Shown here in pieces: positions 7,385-16,550 of a DNA stretch of 64,000 nt (positions are counted from its first letter, which is position 1; each line of letters starts with the position of its first letter). Source of the stretch: Methanomassiliicoccales archaeon (lineage in GTDB: Archaea > Thermoplasmatota > Thermoplasmata > Methanomassiliicoccales > UBA472); the NCBI GenBank assembly GCA_026394395.1, contig JAPKYK010000002.1, forward strand, positions 62,001-126,000, written 5' to 3'. A program made the translations under genes and the position numbers. The notes beneath the pieces were generated by a model. It was not told the DNA's origin. It did not search any database and worked only from the letters and a program-made list of their open reading frames with translations.

Positions 7385-7768
7385 TCAAGACCGGATGAAC
7401 TTCAGGTAAGCGATGCCTTCCAACCGGTACATCTTGTCCAATAGGTCGTTTATCTCCTTGGCATCCCCGCTCAGCATCATCATGTTCATGCACTTGTGAT
7501 TTCCCAGGTGATTGTGCACGTGGGTCCTGATCAGCGGATGGTTGTCGTGATAGATGTCATGGATCGAGCCGGAGGCGCAGGCGTCGTTCACCATGATCAG
7601 GACGCCATCGACCGAGCCGACCATGGTCCGCCGTTCGTTGTTCTCCGCCAGAAGCGTCCGCATGGCTGCCCGTATGGCCTCGGAACGGCCGGTGAAGCCC
7701 AGTTCCTTCTGCAGGAACGCCAGGTCCTCCACGTTCTTGTCGGTCAGGGATACGCTTATGATAGGCAT
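7385..7768 (-). CDS. nikR: NikR-type metal-responsive transcription regulator
   Basis: A 127-residue protein with an N-terminal ribbon-helix-helix DNA-binding domain ('ISVSLTDKNVEDLAFL', 'GRSEAIRAAMR') and a C-terminal ACT-like metal domain. The metal domain carries 'HTHVHNHL' and 'NHKCMNMMML', matching the His-His-Cys nickel site of NikR. NikR tetramers repress nickel uptake genes when nickel binds. The gene is divergent from a metal ABC transporter across a 206-base intergenic region with two GTTATTAAC sequences. This suggests it controls that transporter and itself. Confidence 0.85.
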   Translation of the reverse strand: MPIISVSLTDKNVEDLAFLQKELGFTGRSEAIRAAMRTLLAENNERRTMVGSVDGVLIMVNDACASGSIHDIYHDNHPLIRTHVHNHLGNHKCMNMMMLSGDAKEINDLLDKMYRLEGIAYLKFIRS

Positions 7769-7974
7769 CGGAATGAGAAATGTTATTAACTATTATTTAA
7801 AGTTGTGATTAATGATTATTAATGACATCATCTTCATTTTCAAAATTATTATAGAAATCCAGCATCAGATGTTCAAATGGAACTGAGCAATATCATCAGA
7901 AGCGAAAAAGGATTTAATTAATAAATAAATGCGATAATGTTATTAACCTCCTCAATATACCAATTGTTGGGACA
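7769..7974. promoter_or_regulatory. Divergent promoter region between nikR and the metal ABC operon
   Basis: An AT-rich region holding both start regions. The 12-mer AATGTTATTAAC occurs at 7779-7790, just before nikR, and at 7936-7947, about 28 bases before the transporter start. Each includes the near-palindrome GTTA-T-TAAC. The position in front of both divergent genes makes it a candidate NikR operator. This is inference, since archaeal NikR sites are not well defined. Confidence 0.45.
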
Positions 7975-8910
7975 ATGAACAAAAAGCAGGCCATCTTGGT
8001 CATCGGCGTGGTAATGGTCACGATATCGTTGATGACCGTCTCGGTGCTTCTCAGCGACGCATCAGATACTGAGAGCGATAAACTGAATGTCGTGGCCACC
8101 TTCTATCCACTGGCCTACATGGCCGAGGCCATCGGCGGGGAGAAAGTTTCCGTCACTTGCCTGATCCCATACAACACCGAGATCCATTCCTATTCCCCGA
8201 CCACCAAGAACATGTTCGACACCGACAATGCGGACATCATCCTCTACAACGGAGGGCCGGGGGACTCCTGGCTGATATCCGATGTGCTGCCATCTATCGA
8301 TGCTGACAATAAACTGATCGTGAACACCACGGCGGGCGTGGAGTACATCTCCGGGACAGATGAGCACGAGGAGGGCGGGGCAGGCGTGGACCCTCACACC
8401 TGGATTAGCCCGAAACAAGCACTGATCCAAGCGAAGAACGTGTACCAGGCCTTATGCCAGATCGACCCCAACGGAACATCGTACTACGAGCAAAAGTTCG
8501 AGGTCCTGAACGCCACCCTAACTGAACTGGACCAGGAGTACCAGTCCCTTTCGCAAGGGAATCTGACCACTATAATCGTCTCTCATTCCGCCTTCGGCTA
8601 CGTTGCGAGCGACTACGGTTTCAAGCAGGAGGGCGTGATCGGCCTCAGCGGGGACGAGGAACCCTCGATATCCACCATCACCTCCCTGGTCCAACTGATG
8701 ACCGACCAGAACATCTACACGGTGTTCACGGACCCGCAGTTCTCGGGCAGTTACGCCACCATCCTCAAGGAGGAGGTCCAGGACCAGACCGGGCACGACG
8801 TTCAATTGCTGGAGCTGTATCTGATGACCGGGCCGGTGGACGAGATGGACTACCTGAAGCAGATGTCGCAGAACTTAATTAACCTGAAGGCCGGTCTGGA
8901 AGTTGCCTGA
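7975..8910 (+). CDS. Metal ABC transporter substrate-binding lipoprotein-like protein (ZnuA family)
   Basis: A 311-residue exported protein with a signal or anchor helix at residues 6-27. It is a cluster A-I metal-binding receptor. Ligand positions are seen in 'TEIHSYSP', 'VDPHTWISP', 'VSHSAFGY' and 'FTDPQFSG', giving His-His-His plus an acidic residue. Family members bind Zn, Mn or, less often, Ni. The His-rich loop of zinc-specific ZnuA is short here. The neighbouring NikR hints at nickel. It starts a three-gene operon with the ATPase (8920) and a truncated permease (9686). Confidence 0.85.
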   Translation: MNKKQAILVIGVVMVTISLMTVSVLLSDASDTESDKLNVVATFYPLAYMAEAIGGEKVSVTCLIPYNTEIHSYSPTTKNMFDTDNADIILYNGGPGDSWLISDVLPSIDADNKLIVNTTAGVEYISGTDEHEEGGAGVDPHTWISPKQALIQAKNVYQALCQIDPNGTSYYEQKFEVLNATLTELDQEYQSLSQGNLTTIIVSHSAFGYVASDYGFKQEGVIGLSGDEEPSISTITSLVQLMTDQNIYTVFTDPQFSGSYATILKEEVQDQTGHDVQLLELYLMTGPVDEMDYLKQMSQNLINLKAGLEVA

Positions 8911-8919
8911 GGAATTGGT

Positions 8920-9699
8920 ATGGAGCCCATAATCGAAGTGCAGGGACTGACGGTCAAGCGCGGGACCACCGAGGCCATCACCAACGCCTCTTTCGTGATC
9001 GAGAAGGGGGATTACGTCGGAGTGGTCGGTCCCAACGGCGGCGGCAAGACCACCTTGGTGCTGGCGCTGTTAGGTCTGCTGCCCAAGGGGTCCGGAAGCA
9101 TCAAGATACTGGGCCAGGAGGTCGAGTCCTTCAAGCAGTGGGAGAAGGTGGGATACGTCTCCCAATACGCCATCAACTTCGATTCACAGTTCCCCCTGAC
9201 GGTCAAGGAGCTCGTTGGTCTAGGAAGAATTAACCCCAAGAACCTCGGCCGTTTCCGCAACAAGGACGACTGGAGCGCGGTCAACGACGCCCTGTCGATG
9301 ATGGGCATATCCGACCTGAAGAACAAACGCATAGGCCAGCTGTCCGGGGGGCAGAGGCAGAGGGCCTTCGTGGCCAAATCCCTGGTCAGCAAGCCGGAGC
9401 TGCTGGTGCTCGACGAGCCGGTCACCGGCTTCGACCCCATCACCCAGGAGAAGTTCTTCATGCAGCTGGCCAACCTGAACCAGAAGAAGGGGTTGACCAT
9501 CCTCATCGTCTCCCATGACCTAGCGGCGGTCTTCTGCCGCATGTCCCGGGTGCTCTGCGTGAACAGAGAGGTGCACAGCAGCGCCATCATCGAAGGCAAG
9601 GTGCCGGATGACATACTGAAGAAAGGGTACGGGGAGCACTTCCGTTTCGCCTTCCACGAACATCAATGCCAAGGGGTCTTCATCGATGAGCAGCTTTGA
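8920..9699 (+). CDS. Metal ABC transporter ATPase (ZnuC family)
   Basis: A 259-residue ABC ATPase with all key motifs: Walker A 'GPNGGGKTT', Q-loop 'GYVSQYA', signature 'LSGGQRQRA', Walker B 'LLVLDEP' and H-loop 'IVSHDLAAV'. It would drive uptake through the cluster A-I permease. It begins 9 bases after the receptor gene with GGAATTG upstream, and its end overlaps the permease start by 14 bases, so translation is coupled. The last 20 residues have a Cys and several His ('HEHQCQ'), which may be incidental. Confidence 0.9.
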   Translation: MEPIIEVQGLTVKRGTTEAITNASFVIEKGDYVGVVGPNGGGKTTLVLALLGLLPKGSGSIKILGQEVESFKQWEKVGYVSQYAINFDSQFPLTVKELVGLGRINPKNLGRFRNKDDWSAVNDALSMMGISDLKNKRIGQLSGGQRQRAFVAKSLVSKPELLVLDEPVTGFDPITQEKFFMQLANLNQKKGLTILIVSHDLAAVFCRMSRVLCVNREVHSSAIIEGKVPDDILKKGYGEHFRFAFHEHQCQGVFIDEQL

Positions 9700-10327
9700 T
9701 CCCGCGGACATCCTGGGGCTCTTCCAGTACCAGTTCTTCGTTCGGGCCTTGATAGGCGGGGCGCTTGCAGCCATCGTGTCCGCCTGGATAGGACTGTTCC
9801 TCATCCTGAGAAAGGAGTCAATGCTGGTCGACGGCGTGGCCCACACCGCCTTCGGCGGTGTCGCGCTCGGTCTCCTCCTCGGCATCGATCCCATGATCGG
9901 AGCGTTGGCCATCTCCATCGTGGCGGTTTTCGGCATCACTTACATGAGGCGAAAAGGCTTGGCCCAATCGGACTCGGCCATCGCGGTCATGATGGCCATG
10001 GGCTTCTCCCTCGGCATCATCATAATCTACATGGCCGATGGGTTCAACACCGACCTTTTCAACTATCTCTTCGGTTCCATACTCACCATCGACCAGAACG
10101 ATGTAATGGTCTTGGTGGCCCTGGCCCTGATAATCATCGGCTTCATGGTCTTCTTCTACAAGGAAATGCTAGCGGTGACCTTCGATGAGGATGGGGCCAA
10201 GCTCCAGGGCATCCCGGTCAACGGGCTGACCATGGCCTTGTCTTCACTGCCGCTGGCATATTCCTATTCGTGGTCGCCTATCAGCGGTTGGCCTGAGCCC
10301 AGACGCGCGTTTCGTATCATTTTTTAA
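9686..10327 (+). pseudogene. Metal ABC transporter permease (ZnuB family), truncated at C-terminus
   Basis: It reads as a normal ZnuB-type permease for about 185 residues (signature 'DGVAHTAFGGVALG') and then turns into the non-hydrophobic tail 'SYSWSPISGWPEPRR'. From 10240, an alternative frame gives the helix-like 'VFTAAGIFLFVVAYQRLA' and stops at 10296. Family members are about 260-280 residues, so two or three C-terminal helices are missing whichever frame is used. A deletion or frameshift near 10240 is the simplest reading. Loss of these helices should abolish transport unless another permease substitutes. The gene runs straight into the promoter of the UroD methyltransferase. Confidence 0.65.
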
Positions 10328-10504: not shown

Positions 10505-11644
10505 ATGGGCTATGAAGAAATGTTTCCAGCCATGGATAGCAAGTGGCACGGTAATGCCGCTAAGCGCTTTGCGAGCCCCTTTGTGGACAATCCACACGAC
10601 CGCATAGACGTGGACCCGATCATCTTGTCCAACGCCGCTGTGGCCTGCGGATATACCATAAGGGACTTCTATGAAAAACCAGAGTTGGGTATACACTGCG
10701 TCGGCTACATATCCCACCTCTTTGACCTGCTACCAGTTACGCACTGGTTCTTCTCGTTGCCGTGGGTCACTGAGCTGGGTCTGAAGCTGGTCTACAAGGA
10801 GACTCTGCCGCCGATCTCTACCGGGCCGATATATTCGACCCCGGAAGACATCGACAAGATGCACGTACCTAGCAAGGACGATCTGTTGAAGGCACAGGCC
10901 AAGCACGGTAATCTGGCGACGGTACCTATGTTCTACAGGATCTACGACTATGTGGCGAAGAACCTGCCCATGACCTTGGTTCCGATCTCCTACGGTTTCG
11001 ACCTGGTGGGAGCGGCTGCCGAGATGGTGGGTGTGGAGAACTTCATCATGTGGACGTTCACGGAGCCGGACGCTGCCCAGAAGCTGGTGCAGAACTACAC
11101 CGACACCTCCATCAACGGCGCTGAGGCCTTGGCCGACAAGTACGGAATGGCGATGTTGATCGTCGGGTCCGTTCTGGCCAACAACGATATCTTCAGCGAC
11201 GAGGGCGTTGCGGAATACTCCGTTAAGAACATGTACAGGTACGTGGACGGCTGCTTCAAGCATGGAGCCGGACCGCAGGTGTTCTATCACCTGTGCGGTA
11301 ACCATGAGACCGACTACAAGCTGTTCAAGGACGGCTTGATGTGGTCCCCGTTCACCGTGATACACGCCGGTTACAAGGGCAGGAACGTTTTCCCGTCCAA
11401 GCTCCTGAAGGAGACCTTCCAGGACAAGGCAACCTGCATGGGATCCGTCGATACCAAGCTGATGATCGACCCCGTCCCGAACAAGGTGTACAACCAGGCC
11501 AAGGAGCAGCTACTGCAGGGCCGCGATTCGAAGAAGGGTTACATCCTTGGTACCGCTTGCGAGACGCCTCCGTACACCATACCCGGACAGATGTTGGCCT
11601 TGGTCAAGGCGGCTAGGGACTTCGGTACCTACGGAACTTGGTGA
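10505..11644 (+). CDS. UroD-family (MtaA/CmuA-like) methylcobamide-dependent methyltransferase
   Basis: A 379-residue protein of the uroporphyrinogen-decarboxylase superfamily. The zinc-thiolate motif of MtaA, MtbA and CmuA methyltransferases is visible as 'YHLCGNHE' (His-x-Cys) plus 'GTACETPP' (the distal Cys). It is therefore more likely a methylcorrinoid:thiol methyltransferase than a heme-pathway enzyme. No corrinoid protein is encoded alongside it. Instead an unknown 149-residue protein follows after 10 bases with a ribosome binding site in the overlap. The TATA box at 10461-10473 and the short leader fix the start. The thiol acceptor (CoM or another) cannot be read from the sequence. 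Confidence 0.75.
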   Translation: MGYEEMFPAMDSKWHGNAAKRFASPFVDNPHDRIDVDPIILSNAAVACGYTIRDFYEKPELGIHCVGYISHLFDLLPVTHWFFSLPWVTELGLKLVYKETLPPISTGPIYSTPEDIDKMHVPSKDDLLKAQAKHGNLATVPMFYRIYDYVAKNLPMTLVPISYGFDLVGAAAEMVGVENFIMWTFTEPDAAQKLVQNYTDTSINGAEALADKYGMAMLIVGSVLANNDIFSDEGVAEYSVKNMYRYVDGCFKHGAGPQVFYHLCGNHETDYKLFKDGLMWSPFTVIHAGYKGRNVFPSKLLKETFQDKATCMGSVDTKLMIDPVPNKVYNQAKEQLLQGRDSKKGYILGTACETPPYTIPGQMLALVKAARDFGTYGTW

Positions 11645-11654
11645 GGTGACTAAA

Positions 11655-12104
11655 ATGGTACAAGTTACTATACCGCACGATGTGAAGGAGCTTATCGCGA
11701 AGAGGGGACTGAAGGAGCACGACGTAATCGATGTTGTGGAAACTGCGGCTAAGACCAATGTGTACATCAAGAAAGGCAACATGGGACTGGCCAAGAAGGT
11801 CATCGGTAGCCTCACCGTGTACGTCATGAGCGATCTATCTGGTCACGGCACCGCCGTGGTCAAGAGCGCCTATTCTCACAAGATGAAGCTGGGCAAGATC
11901 GTCAACGTCATGGCGGAGACCGAGTGGAAGACCCACGGCGGCAAACCTGTCGCTCAGGGCCACGTGGAGATCGAGTACATGACCGTCAAGAGGAACGGTC
12001 CTGCACTGGTCGATCCGGCCACCGGGGACGCTTGGGTCGAGGAGTACCTCGCCGTCAAGACTCTGGCCGCTGCGGAAGGCCTCTTCGAGAAGAAGCGCGC
12101 TTAA
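11655..12104 (+). CDS. Unknown 149-residue protein coupled to the UroD methyltransferase
   Basis: A soluble, Lys-rich protein starting 'MVQVTIPHDVKELIAK'. The ATG at 11655 was chosen because GAGGTGAC sits 5 bases upstream, right at the methyltransferase stop. The N-terminal 45 residues look helical. The middle ('LTVYVMSDLSGHGTAVV', 'GHVEIEYMTVKRNG') looks like a beta-rich domain with a single conserved-looking His. There is no Cys at all, so it is neither a redox protein nor a corrinoid carrier. A strong terminator follows. It probably works with the UroD enzyme as a subunit or folding partner. I recognise no family. Confidence 0.7.
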   Translation: MVQVTIPHDVKELIAKRGLKEHDVIDVVETAAKTNVYIKKGNMGLAKKVIGSLTVYVMSDLSGHGTAVVKSAYSHKMKLGKIVNVMAETEWKTHGGKPVAQGHVEIEYMTVKRNGPALVDPATGDAWVEEYLAVKTLAAAEGLFEKKRA

Positions 12105-12113
12105 AACAACTTC

Positions 12114-12142
12114 AGGCCGCTAAACGCGGCCTTTCTTTTTTC
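12114..12142 (+). terminator. Terminator after the UroD two-gene operon
   Basis: The stem AGGCCGC (12114-12120) pairs with GCGGCCT (12126-12132) across a 5-base loop, followed by TTCTTTTTTC. Confidence 0.7.
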
Positions 12143-12235
12143 ATTTTTTAATTTTATGGCGATGGCGCCGCCCTTCGATTGGCAAAAGTAGAATAGTGCC
12201 ACATGACATTCCCTTGAAATATTCCGGTGAAATAA

Positions 12236-13606
12236 ATGAGCAAGGTCATTGGTCACACGAACAGCCTCTGCCCCAAATGCCTGAAGACCGTCCCGGCCAC
12301 CAAGGTCGCCGAGGACGACAAGGTATACCTGATCAAGGAATGCCCCGAGCACGGCACGGAGAAAGTGCTCATCTGGAGGGGCGTGGAGGATTACGAGGAC
12401 ATGAAGAGGTACGCCGCGGTGCAGTCCAAGCCCCTTAAGATAGCGGTGGCCGAGAAAGATAACTGCCCGCAGATATGCGGCCTTTGCCCGGACCATGTGC
12501 AGCACACATGCCTAGTGGTCATGGAGATCACCAACGGCTGCAACCTGAAGTGCCCGGTTTGCTTCGCCTCGGCCAACCAGTTCTACAAGTTCAATCCCGC
12601 CATGGAGATCATCAAGGGCATGTACCAGACCATGCTCGATTACGTCAATCACCCCATATGCATTCAGATAAGCGGTGGGGAACCGACCATACGTGATGAT
12701 CTCCCTGACGTCGTCCGCATGGGCAAGCAGATGGGCATCGACCATATCGAACTGAACACCAACGGCATTCGCTTCGCCGAAGACATCGAGTTCCTCAAGA
12801 AGGTCAAGGACGCCGGCGTGGACTCGTTGTACTTCTCCTTCGACGGGCTGCACGGTGACATCTACAAACAGACCTGTGGCCGGGACATACTGGCCCAAAA
12901 GCTGAAGTGCATTGAGAACTGCGAGAAGGTGGGCATGGGCGTCACCCTGGTTTGCGTCGTATCGCCGAACATCAACCTGGACCGCGTGGGCGAGGTCATC
13001 AACTTCGCCAAGTCCAAGGTGCCTACGGTCAAGGGCGTCCACTTCCAGCCCATAGCATACTTCGGCCGCTTCCCCATCGCCCCCAAGGACGAGGACCGGG
13101 TGACCATCCCTGATCTGCTGAGGGCCATCGAGGAACAGACCGGCGGGGAGCTGAGGGTGGACAACTTCATCCCCACCTCCTGCTCCAACGTGCATTGCGA
13201 CGCCAAGTCCATGTCCGTGGTCATGGAGGATGGGACGCTATTCCCCCTGACCAGCCGGGCCTTTGGCCCGCCAAAGGAAACAAAGACCGTGGCCACCAAG
13301 ACCCGGAAGGAGATATCCGACCTGTGGCGATTCATCGAGGAATCCCTGATCGTCGAGGACGGAGAGGGCGGCGGGGCCAATGAATGGGGTGATTTCGTCG
13401 ACCGGGCCAAGACAAACTACCTGACCGTCTCCACCATGGCCTTCCAGGACGCCTGGACGTCCGAGACGGAAAGGTTCTGCAACTGCTGCATCCACACCGT
13501 GACACCGGATGGGAAGCTGATCCCCTTCTGCCTGTTCAACATCAACTCGCAGGATGGGAAGACCTTGTACCGACACGAGATGTGGTCAAAGTACAGCGAA
13601 AAGTGA
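12236..13606 (+). CDS. Radical SAM enzyme of the Tes/MJ0619-like type
   Basis: A 456-residue protein. The N-terminal zinc-ribbon-like part has 'LCPKCLKTV' and 'KECPEHGTE'. Next come 'CGLCPDHVQHTC' and the radical SAM motif 'CNLKCPVC' (CxxxCxxC), then 'SGGEPTIRDD' for SAM binding. The C-terminal Cys cluster 'FCNCCIHTVTPDGKLIPFC' suggests extra Fe-S centres. This layout matches the MJ0619-like group, which includes tetraether lipid synthase, a methanopterin-precursor methylase and the TrsS proteins next to CoA ligases. Context (UroD methyltransferase before, CoA ligase after) favours a C1 or methyl role, but lipid chemistry is possible. GGTGA precedes the ATG at 12236. Confidence 0.8.
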   Translation: MSKVIGHTNSLCPKCLKTVPATKVAEDDKVYLIKECPEHGTEKVLIWRGVEDYEDMKRYAAVQSKPLKIAVAEKDNCPQICGLCPDHVQHTCLVVMEITNGCNLKCPVCFASANQFYKFNPAMEIIKGMYQTMLDYVNHPICIQISGGEPTIRDDLPDVVRMGKQMGIDHIELNTNGIRFAEDIEFLKKVKDAGVDSLYFSFDGLHGDIYKQTCGRDILAQKLKCIENCEKVGMGVTLVCVVSPNINLDRVGEVINFAKSKVPTVKGVHFQPIAYFGRFPIAPKDEDRVTIPDLLRAIEEQTGGELRVDNFIPTSCSNVHCDAKSMSVVMEDGTLFPLTSRAFGPPKETKTVATKTRKEISDLWRFIEESLIVEDGEGGGANEWGDFVDRAKTNYLTVSTMAFQDAWTSETERFCNCCIHTVTPDGKLIPFCLFNINSQDGKTLYRHEMWSKYSEK

Positions 13607-13611
13607 GCAAC

Positions 13612-13634
13612 GGGGGAAACCCCCATTTTTTTAT
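13612..13634 (+). terminator. Terminator of the radical SAM gene
   Basis: GGGGG (13612-13616) pairs with CCCCC (13620-13624) around AAA and is followed by ATTTTTTTA. The hairpin starts 5 bases after the stop. Confidence 0.65.
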
Positions 13635-13644
13635 TTAAAATAAT

Positions 13645-13950
13645 TTACCTGGAGTTCCTTTTTCCGACCTGGGTGTAATAGTTGCCCAGTATATTGTTCA
13701 CGTAACTGGCCAGGTATTTTTCCCCGTTCCTGTCCTTGGTGATGACCTGTTCCATGGGGAACTCCTTGTCGCAATAGGGGCAGCGGGCATAGCGGCAGTT
13801 GGTGCTGGCCTGGCGGCAGCCGCGACAGGCGATGGCCCGGGACTGCATAAGGCTGAACAGTTTTCCGCAGTTAGGGCAATTGAACCGCCTGGTAGTGTTC
13901 ATTAGTTCGGGTGTGACCCCCGCCCTGCGTAATTCCGGTGTCAGCGGCAT
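13645..13950 (-). CDS. Multi-zinc-ribbon small protein
   Basis: A 101-residue protein with three Cys clusters: 'FNCPNCGKLF', 'IACRGCRQASTNC' and 'RCPYCDKEF'. They would form two zinc ribbons, followed by a helical C-terminus 'YLASYVNNILGNYY' with a basic end. The role is unknown. Such proteins usually bind nucleic acids or proteins. It is on the opposite strand to the radical SAM gene, converging on its terminator, and lies upstream of no clear operon partner. Confidence 0.65.
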   Translation of the reverse strand: MPLTPELRRAGVTPELMNTTRRFNCPNCGKLFSLMQSRAIACRGCRQASTNCRYARCPYCDKEFPMEQVITKDRNGEKYLASYVNNILGNYYTQVGKRNSR

Positions 13951-14026
13951 ATCATTCCTCGTCCAGGTTAACCAACCTCATAATATATTGCTTTTCCCCC
14001 GTTTACGTTTCTATAAGGCCTTATCG

Positions 14027-14800
14027 CTACTCCAGTTCCCGTCCCCGTGGCTCCATGTCCGGAGGGAACAGCACCGGCCAATTGAGGAACGGTCTGAAAG
14101 GGTGAGCGGAGAAGGTGTCGGTGGCCTTAATGCCGTCCAGCAATACGTCCATGATGCGCGGGGAGAAGGCCATGACCAGCTGATCATCGGGGACCAACCC
14201 CCACATGCGATCTCCCACGCAGGGGATGTCCAGCACCGCGTCCTCCCCGGCGATCACCTTGGCGATGGCCGAGCAGACCGAGGATTGTCCGGCGACGGTG
14301 GCCTTCAATATCTTCCCCTCGGCGTACTCGTAGCCCAGCAGGACCTTCAACGCCTGACCCGGGGTAAGATAGGCGACGATGGCATCCGGCTCCGTTGGCA
14401 TGAGGTCCAGGGGAGCGATCAGCATCGCTCCGTACCTCTGCCCCTCGTTCCCCAGCATGAAAATGCCGTCCTGCAGGGCCTTGGCCGCCTCGTCGTCCTT
14501 AGTGAATGGCCGGTTCAATTCACCCTTGGCCAACCTTTCCGGGGTCTTGATCATTCCTAAACAGGCCAGGCCCCACAGGCACTTCATGCCCTGGGAGGTG
14601 GATACGCTCACCCCCTCCGTTCGATAATGGCGAGCGAGGACGATCATGTGGCATGTAGCTGTGGAACGAAGGTTGCGGGCGCCGGGGACCGACAGGGCCT
14701 CGGAGGCCTTCTCATACATCTTGACCCCCACCGGCCAGGTGCCCAGATTCAAAAGTGAGCGGAACTCCCTGGCCTGCTTGGTCCTATGCGCGTCCGGCAT
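14027..14800 (-). CDS. DUF169 family protein
   Basis: A 257-residue protein starting at 'MPDAHRTKQ'. The open frame extends upstream, but only by crossing the divergent CoA-ligase promoter. It has the DUF169 hallmarks 'LGTWPVGVKMY', 'TCHMIVLARHYR', 'KCLWGLACLGM' and 'CVGDRMWGLVPDDQLV'. Three or four conserved Cys occur in the first two thirds and suggest metal or cofactor binding. DUF169 proteins are common in methanogens and anaerobes near C1 enzymes, and none has an established reaction that I know of. It stops at a TAG codon. It is divergently arranged with the CoA ligase, about 78 bases apart. Confidence 0.8.
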   Translation of the reverse strand: MPDAHRTKQAREFRSLLNLGTWPVGVKMYEKASEALSVPGARNLRSTATCHMIVLARHYRTEGVSVSTSQGMKCLWGLACLGMIKTPERLAKGELNRPFTKDDEAAKALQDGIFMLGNEGQRYGAMLIAPLDLMPTEPDAIVAYLTPGQALKVLLGYEYAEGKILKATVAGQSSVCSAIAKVIAGEDAVLDIPCVGDRMWGLVPDDQLVMAFSPRIMDVLLDGIKATDTFSAHPFRPFLNWPVLFPPDMEPRGRELE

Positions 14801-14878
14801 GCCCCATCTATGTTCTTTTGAATTTAATAGTCCTGCGGTTTGAAACAAATATATGTCTCCGATGGCATGGGGTCCAGG

Positions 14879-16330
14879 ATGAGCATTAAAAGCCGCATCG
14901 CCATCGCCTACGCGCGCACCAAGCTCTCCTCCAGGAAGGTCTCCGAGGACGTAGAGAACCCCCTGCAAGACTGGGTCCAGCTGAAGGTGCGCAACACGTT
15001 CAAGCAGGACGAAGGCTTCCGCAAGGCACTAGACCGGAAGACCCTGGGCGATGTGGACCAGGCGACCTTCGAGGAATACCAGCTGCACAAGTTCCGCAAG
15101 CAGGTCGCCTACGTCATGGAGAACAGCTACTATTACAAGAAGAAGTACACCGAAGCCGGGGTGGTGCCTGATAACATCAGGACCATGGACGACCTGGACA
15201 AGGTGCCGCTAACCGAGCCTGCCGACCTGGCCGAAGAGCCTTTCTTATTCCTTTGCCCGTCACAGAGCAAGATCGCCCGGACCTTCTCCACCTCCGGGAC
15301 GTCAGGCAAGCCCAAGCGCCTGTTCTACACCATGGACGACCTGCTGAACATCGTAGATTCCATAGCCGCGGCCCTGAGGTCCGCCGGGCTGAAGAGCAAC
15401 GAGACGCTGCATATCATGTTCCCAGCGGTGGTGGCCTGGGACCCCAGTCTGATGCTGGAGAACGCTTGCCAGGTGGCAGGGCTGAAGTCGGTGGTGTGCT
15501 CCTCGGTGGACGTGGACGAGCAGATCAAGGTAATTAAGGATAACAAGACCCGCATCATCATCGGGCTCACTTCCTTCATCTACCGGGTGACGGTGCTGGC
15601 CTGCGACAGGTACGACCTGCGATCCCTAAGGCTCAAAGCCATTATCTGCTCCTCCGAGCCGCTGTCCGAGGCGGTGCGAAAGGAGATGGAGGAGGCCTGG
15701 GGCTGCAAATGCCTGAGCCAGTACGGCATGACCGAGATGGGTCTGGCCACCGCCATCGAATGTTACGTTCAAACGGGGCTGCACATCAACGAGGCGGACT
15801 TCCTGGTGGAGGTCATCGACCCGGACACCGGGAAGAGGCTGCCTCCGGGAACCGAGGGGGAACTGGTCTGGACCTCCCTGAGCTTTCAGGGCTCCCCCCT
15901 CCTGCGCTACCGCTCCTACGACATCTCCCATTACATCCTGCCGCCCTGCGAGTGCGGCCACGTCACCATCGGCAAGATCGGCAAGCCCAAGGGCAGACGG
16001 GACGCAGCTACCAAGATCGGTCTGGGAGAGCACATCTTCCCCACGCTTTTCGATGAGGCGATAATGAAGGTGCACGGCGTCCTCAATTACCAGCTGGTCA
16101 TCGACAAGCCGTCCTTCCGCGACCGGCTGCATTTCACGGTCGAATACAACGGAGATATGGAAGAGGGTCGGAAGGCCGTCCTCGAGACGGTTCTCGCGTT
16201 AGAGGAGATACGCAGCGGCCTGGAAAATGATCTTCTGGACCCCATAGAGGTGGAGATGAAGGAGGTCCCCAAGGACTTCACCCCCAAGGCAAAGCCCATA
16301 GTGGACCGCAGACCGAGGTTCGACAGCTGA
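14879..16330 (+). CDS. AMP-forming CoA ligase (phenylacetate-CoA-ligase-like)
   Basis: A 483-residue adenylate-forming enzyme. The P-loop is 'FSTSGTSGKPKR', the adenine motif 'QYGMTEMGLA', and the C-terminal catalytic Lys lies in 'DFTPKAKPIVDRR'. It is shorter and more divergent than typical acyl-CoA synthetases and resembles the PaaK-like ligases that sit next to MJ0619-like radical SAM proteins in some anaerobes. The carboxylate it activates is unknown. The ATG at 14879 has GGGGTCCAGG upstream. Alternative starts at 14867 and 14840 exist. A TATA-like AAATATATG lies at about 14847-14855. Confidence 0.8.
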   Translation: MSIKSRIAIAYARTKLSSRKVSEDVENPLQDWVQLKVRNTFKQDEGFRKALDRKTLGDVDQATFEEYQLHKFRKQVAYVMENSYYYKKKYTEAGVVPDNIRTMDDLDKVPLTEPADLAEEPFLFLCPSQSKIARTFSTSGTSGKPKRLFYTMDDLLNIVDSIAAALRSAGLKSNETLHIMFPAVVAWDPSLMLENACQVAGLKSVVCSSVDVDEQIKVIKDNKTRIIIGLTSFIYRVTVLACDRYDLRSLRLKAIICSSEPLSEAVRKEMEEAWGCKCLSQYGMTEMGLATAIECYVQTGLHINEADFLVEVIDPDTGKRLPPGTEGELVWTSLSFQGSPLLRYRSYDISHYILPPCECGHVTIGKIGKPKGRRDAATKIGLGEHIFPTLFDEAIMKVHGVLNYQLVIDKPSFRDRLHFTVEYNGDMEEGRKAVLETVLALEEIRSGLENDLLDPIEVEMKEVPKDFTPKAKPIVDRRPRFDS

Positions 16331-16406: not shown

Positions 16407-16550
16407 ATATCCGAAGAAAAGAAAGGCAAGGCTGAGGAGACGGCCGACAAGACTGGAGAAGCGGTCGGCAAGGGTCTGAAGTAAGGCTGGGGTGCGGTCA
16501 AGGAAGCTGGAAAGGGCGTGAAGAAAGGGATCGATGAAGATAAAAAATAA
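16407..16550 (+). pseudogene. Decayed small charged protein gene with in-frame TAA
   Basis: Beginning at an ATA where an ATG would be expected, the frame reads 'SEEKKGKAEETADKTGEAV' and 'GKGLK', then meets TAA at 16482. It continues as 'GWGAVKEAGKGVKKGID' to a double stop at 16548. The two halves are plainly one small Lys/Glu/Gly-rich protein of about 46 residues, similar in composition to CsbD or LEA-like stress proteins. Lost start plus internal stop indicates a pseudogene. A terminator hairpin follows at 16578. The remainder of the 16331-16710 gap has no gene. Confidence 0.6.

Follow-up and report, generated by a model that had tools for sequence, protein, structure and literature searches.

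The window analysed here, a stretch of 64,000 nucleotides from a Methanomassiliicoccales archaeon (genome of 1.64 Mb, 99.9% complete), carries a conserved archaeal variant of the known but uncharacterized Trs cluster, of which we found no description in the literature searched. Its core consists of four genes, encoding a UroD-family methyltransferase-like protein (UroD), a 149-residue protein (p149), the radical SAM enzyme TrsS and a PaaK-like AMP-forming CoA ligase, and these genes are kept or lost as a set. The identification of the module has good support, and we infer a biochemical purpose for it: most likely, it makes or modifies a small cofactor-like compound.

Gene content and co-occurrence in Methanomassiliicoccales

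All six genes that a sequence-only reading of this DNA had placed side by side are intact and lie where it put them. UroD (positions 10505–11644, plus strand) is followed on the same strand by p149 (11655–12104) and trsS (12236–13606). A multi-zinc-ribbon protein (13645–13950) and a DUF169 protein (PF02596; 14027–14800) are encoded on the minus strand, and the ligase gene (14879–16330, plus strand) lies near trsS on the far side of these two. The nearest family of the ligase is DVU_1553, which it matches with 265 bits (NF045666 cut-off, 300). The lipid genes GGGPS and UbiA are located downstream of the ligase in the window. As had been claimed, the cluster is free of a corrinoid protein: no such gene is found within it. 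A terminator-like hairpin followed by a T tract (aggccgc-taaac-gcggcct; 12114–12150, plus strand) can be read from the sequence 3′ of p149, and this putative element suggests that UroD–p149 and trsS may be separate transcription units.

We compared the occurrence of these genes in 120 Methanomassiliicoccales genomes, with TrsS defined by NF045646. TrsS is present in 52 of the 120 genomes, p149 in 54 and UroD in 59. UroD and p149 are both found in 52/52 TrsS genomes and the ligase in 51/52, with Fisher p-values of ~4e-32 (p149/TrsS) and ~5e-24 (ligase) that count related genomes as independent and thus overstate the significance; the pattern holds without them. The TrsS contig of the one genome that lacks the ligase is apparently short, cutting the ligase off, and the genomes with a ligase but without TrsS are mostly incomplete assemblies. 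All four core genes are absent from the single-contig genomes of family f2 among those listed, and from the nearly complete f3 genomes G184 and G192. Genomes with and without the set occur naturally within one order and lend themselves to comparative screens of metabolites and lipids.

The order of the genes is also conserved. UroD, p149 and TrsS are collinear in almost all of the 52 TrsS genomes; UroD directly precedes p149 in 52 genomes, with a gap of 8–28 nt, and in 48 TrsS follows p149 on the same strand. The sequence-only reading had proposed to check for neighbouring homologues in other genomes, and the UroD–p149–TrsS adjacency indeed recurs across the order. In genome G235 (locus L152), UroD–p149 stands apart from trsS and is closely followed by ribosomal protein and elongation factor genes, and genome G200 has an extra stand-alone copy of the pair.

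The boundaries of the unit can be drawn from the loci around the zinc-ribbon gene in ten TrsS-less genomes. GGGPS directly adjoins the zinc-ribbon gene in eight of them, and in the same eight the ligase is gone from one side of it and the TrsS–p149–UroD block from the other. This joint absence around a retained gene links the ligase to TrsS. The zinc-ribbon gene itself is carried by 117 of the 120 genomes, with or without TrsS, and GGGPS stands beside it where TrsS is missing; thus, the zinc-ribbon gene and GGGPS/UbiA are placed outside the unit. The DUF169 gene is a frequent neighbour for which several TrsS loci (L146, L147 and L149, for example) gave no match, and it was likewise rejected as a member. 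The six-gene module proposed earlier therefore stands for UroD, p149, TrsS and the ligase, and loses the zinc-ribbon and DUF169 genes.

TrsS and its relation to tetraether synthase

The radical SAM protein of the window scores 526 bits with the TrsS model NF045646 (cut-off 490), compared with 381 bits for the Tes model (cut-off 450). Its gene has no in-frame stop and thus no selenocysteine codon; the family name, ‘(seleno)protein’, permits a cysteine version. The trsS gene of a relative (L024:9891-11249) contains an in-frame TAG near the C-terminus, which may end translation or encode a residue; Methanomassiliicoccales is an order that uses pyrrolysine. A selenoprotein review lists TrsS by name, and we found no description of TrsS in archaea in the literature searched.

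In a tree of 72 rows (quick search, SH-aLRT support, no bootstrap), Tes is split from all TrsS sequences with an SH-aLRT value of 100, and archaeal and bacterial TrsS fall together. The archaeal sequences form a single clade, nearest to six bacterial TrsS, with an SH-aLRT value of 84 that is tentative for a quick search. Between Tes and TrsS there is a third, long branch made up of a Thermoplasmata protein (L055). Judged from sequence comparison, TrsS and the tetraether-lipid synthase Tes are sister families. The link to TrsS-type clusters, including those of Desulfovibrio, that the sequence-only reading had drawn is supported by the score over the cut-off and by the grouping with bacterial TrsS. 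The same reading had treated MJ0619 and Tes as separate clades; they are the same protein, since MJ0619 is the tetraether synthase whose metal ligands are listed in the structure paper (PMC9433317; PDB 7tol). That paper calls the pterin annotation incorrect (PMC9433317), so MJ0619-type pterin methylation was rejected, and this correction removes a false lead towards methanopterin methylation. A separate true Tes is encoded elsewhere in the genome of the window.

TrsS resembles Tes (GDGT-MAS; MJ0619, PDB 7tol) in fold, in its metal sites and in the Gln/Arg of the active-site loop. The predicted structure matches 7tom/7tol with a TM score of 0.82. The metal sites comprise a rubredoxin site (C12x2C15x20C36x2H39), an FeS-N site (C77/C81/C84, with H87 as the candidate fourth ligand), the radical-SAM motif (C102x3C106x2C109; 12539–12562) and an FeS-C site (C321/C417/C432, the cysteines being assigned by alignment) with Met401 (13436–13438), which corresponds to the labile Met439 of Tes. 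All four sites, including the labile methionine, are invariant in every aligned TrsS and Tes sequence, bar one truncated N-terminus. However, TrsS is ~34% identical to Tes, falls under the Tes cut-off, forms a separate clade and is ~45 residues shorter. Compared with Tes, which has two lipid pockets, the archaeal TrsS proteins lack ~20 residues before C321 and ~24 residues between 337 and 401, a region in which the confidence of the model is low. They also carry a family-specific C92.

In the Tes intermediate, a carbon of the substrate forms a bond with a sulfur atom in one [4Fe-4S] cluster (PMC9433317). From the conserved Tes metal sites and the shorter chain we infer that TrsS carries out Tes-like radical C—C bond formation, probably on a smaller substrate. 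Tes is the sole close relative of TrsS with a solved structure found here, and its chemistry, the joining of two unactivated sp3 carbons, is rare. That archaea and bacteria both conserve a sister enzyme with every Tes ligand, shortened in two regions and linked to a ligase and a methyltransferase, suggests that this chemistry has another application.

UroD, p149 and the bacterial Trs clusters

UroD matches the UroD family (PF01208) with a Pfam score of 86 bits and contains an MtaA-type zinc site. His262, Cys264 and Cys352 are invariant in 12 sequences and align with the zinc site of MtaA (PDB 4ay7); thus, UroD likely bears a zinc-activated thiol or a similar nucleophile. The MtaA/MtbA methylcobamide:CoM methyltransferases belong to the same family and have the same zinc His-Cys…Cys motif. 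However, the window UroD scores 49–56 bits with the MtaA and CmuA models, far below their cut-offs of 235–244 (56 bits against 244 in the comparison with MtaA/MtbA), has no adjacent corrinoid protein and is always adjoined by p149. No close solved relative of UroD was found. A second UroD, which is 56% identical, is located in L030:37-11925 near MeTr, an AcsV-like corrinoid activator and MetF/MetV-like genes, the last being called by reading the sequence, with no NCBIfam match for the MetV-like protein. In four other genomes examined, neither MetF/MetV nor MeTr adjoins this paralogue. Relatives of this paralogue in L156 and L158 adjoin a gene that starts with, or consists of, a cysteine-rich small domain (PF04071, a Pfam match in L156).

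The p149 protein is composed of an N-terminal domain (residues ~1–85) fused to a C-terminal DVU_1557/DUF7479 domain (~96–147). Its first 80 residues resemble the C-terminal end (679–757 of 759) of NF045663, the dicluster flavoprotein model of NCBIfam, which describes a pyridine-nucleotide oxidoreductase/dicluster protein. The last 52 residues resemble DUF7479/DVU_1557; both matches are weak and below the cut-offs. The kinship of the two domains is nevertheless secure because of their positions in the bacterial loci, where both lie upstream of TrsS in the same order in nearly all of the Trs loci examined; they are encoded by two small genes, or the first domain is fused to the dicluster protein. 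The protein, previously listed as an unknown, thus has relatives and is a fusion of two Trs-cluster domains. The zinc-ribbon CxxC…CxxC of the second domain is retained in the relatives L022–L024 and lost in the window clade. In the AF2 model (pLDDT 87.7), the N-terminal domain is nearest to BrnT/RelE-like folds; the match is weak and the likeness is at the fold level only, and so no toxin role is assigned. A sequence search gave no credible solved relative of p149, and nothing on DUF7479 together with UroD was found in the literature searched.

TrsS is found at E < 1e-120 in 20 Desulfobulbus-phylum genomes, and up to 10 kb around it was read. In all, 22 bacterial loci (L029 and L141 are one contig, sampled twice) were compared with 16 archaeal loci. 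The bacterial order is molybdenum hydroxylase, dicluster flavoprotein, domain N, domain C, DVU_1556 methyltransferase, C-GCAxxG protein, TrsS, DVU_1553 ligase and DVU_1551 nucleotidyltransferase, and some loci are without some of these parts. This Desulfobacterota cluster (DVU_1551–DVU_1559 type; NF045646, NF045645, NF045663, NF045666, NF045667 and NF045669) has TrsS in common with the archaeal loci, together with counterparts of the two p149 domains and a PaaK-like ligase, for which the window proteins score below the family cut-offs; TrsS and the ligase are beside each other there too. In contrast, the archaeal loci have no dicluster flavoprotein, and the SAM-methyltransferase DVU_1556 (21/22 bacterial loci), the C-GCAxxG protein DVU_1555 (11/22) and the molybdenum hydroxylase (15/22) each occur in 0/16 of them; UroD is present, and the p149 domains, which are separate or flavoprotein-fused in Desulfobacterota, are fused to each other. 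A zinc-site UroD in place of the usual methyltransferase had been proposed from the window, and this contrast bears it out. Near bacterial TrsS, no member of the UroD subfamily was found, with just two weak matches in 196 Desulfobulbus-phylum genomes. The archaeal version narrows the bacterial Trs cluster to a four-gene core.

A RACo-type activator is encoded at three of the loci of the six bacterial TrsS nearest to the archaeal ones (L026, L137 and L140), and a corrinoid protein and a molybdopterin oxidoreductase are present as well at two of these. The WWE3 label of bacterium L026 is doubted, as TrsS occurs in 1/192 genomes of that phylum. In L131:109-5251, 2-hydroxyglutaryl-CoA dehydratase-like (HGD-D) proteins and a BcrA-type activator precede a bacterial Trs locus.

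Proposed function and alternative explanations

We read the module as the archaeal counterpart of the bacterial Trs cluster, pared down to a core of four genes and following a pathway to a small cofactor-like product, and we consider the chances of this reading to be evenly balanced. The ligase would adenylate or thioesterify a carboxylic acid, and this activated acid, smaller than archaeol, would be the substrate of TrsS. TrsS would use SAM to abstract a hydrogen from an unactivated carbon, and the intermediate, bonded to the C-terminal [4Fe-4S] cluster with its labile Met401, would lead to a new C—C bond as in Tes. The zinc thiol site of UroD, together with a methyl-corrinoid protein encoded elsewhere, may supply or remove a methyl group, with p149 as a probable partner of UroD. 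The corrinoid proteins and RACo-type activators at three of the six nearest bacterial TrsS loci speak for this reading. Several findings count against it. The window cluster has no corrinoid gene. UroD–p149 is seemingly its own transcription unit; at least one genome (G235) has it away from TrsS, and G200 has a second, stand-alone copy. The ligase and p149 scores are under the curated cut-offs of the bacterial families. The extra redox genes also differ among the nearest bacterial TrsS loci (molybdenum oxidoreductase, corrinoid/RACo or HGD-D/BcrA), and these loci may therefore not all serve one pathway. In a more specific form, which we regard as doubtful, the module would build an undescribed small molecule, a cofactor or a membrane-associated quinone-like compound, common to methyl-reducing methanogens and some sulfate reducers. 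It would do so by Tes-type sp3 C—C bond formation on a non-lipid substrate, methylation having changed from SAM-dependent to corrinoid/UroD-dependent as the system entered or evolved in archaea.

The main rival divides the module: UroD–p149 would be a C1 methyl bridge, from methyl-corrinoid or methyl-CoM to folate and the Wood–Ljungdahl pathway or for a new methyl substrate of methanogenesis, and TrsS and the ligase would be a separate neighbour. The MtaA-type zinc site is consistent with such a bridge, as are the hairpin between p149 and trsS, the 56%-identical paralogue near MeTr, the AcsV-like activator and the MetF/MetV-like genes, and the pairs found away from TrsS in G235 and as an extra copy in G200. 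However, 0/52 TrsS genomes are without UroD–p149, the listed single-contig TrsS-less genomes have neither, and bacterial Trs clusters contain both p149 domains, and we hold the bridge to be a rather improbable explanation of the pair. That the adjacency merely follows from conserved gene order in a compact archaeal genome is highly improbable. The neighbouring PdxT, GGGPS, UbiA and M50 genes are likewise in conserved order, but the co-occurrence data already contradict this explanation: the four genes are jointly absent on both sides of the retained zinc-ribbon gene, and the adjacency of TrsS, the ligase and domains N and C recurs in Bacteria.

A role in membrane-lipid modification would make TrsS a second tetraether-type enzyme, for example for the butanetriol/pentanetriol tetraethers of Methanomassiliicoccus luminyensis. 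Tetraethers of this kind are reported within the order, TrsS has the fold and metal sites of Tes, and GGGPS and UbiA follow the ligase. This role is nonetheless unlikely, because TrsS is shorter than Tes (by the ~20 residues before C321 and the ~24 between 337 and 401), a true Tes is encoded elsewhere in the genome, and the GGGPS/UbiA neighbours are found by the zinc-ribbon gene in TrsS-less genomes too, GGGPS directly beside it. The sharing of the TrsS–ligase–p149 domain set with Desulfobacterota-type bacteria also argues against it.

Some features of the flanking DNA may be recorded here. Upstream of UroD (7385–10327), a NikR-like regulator gene is divergent to a metal ABC transporter (binding protein, ATPase and permease), an arrangement that is conserved in related genomes. 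The zinc/metal permease gene of this transporter (9686–10327) is broken: compared with L014, residues 1–177 and 245–263 are in different frames, with ~67 codons gone and a frameshift, which may be real or an assembly error. Downstream of the ligase, at 16420–16550, a short frame rich in lysine codons, which by eye resembles CsbD, is apparently split by a stop codon.
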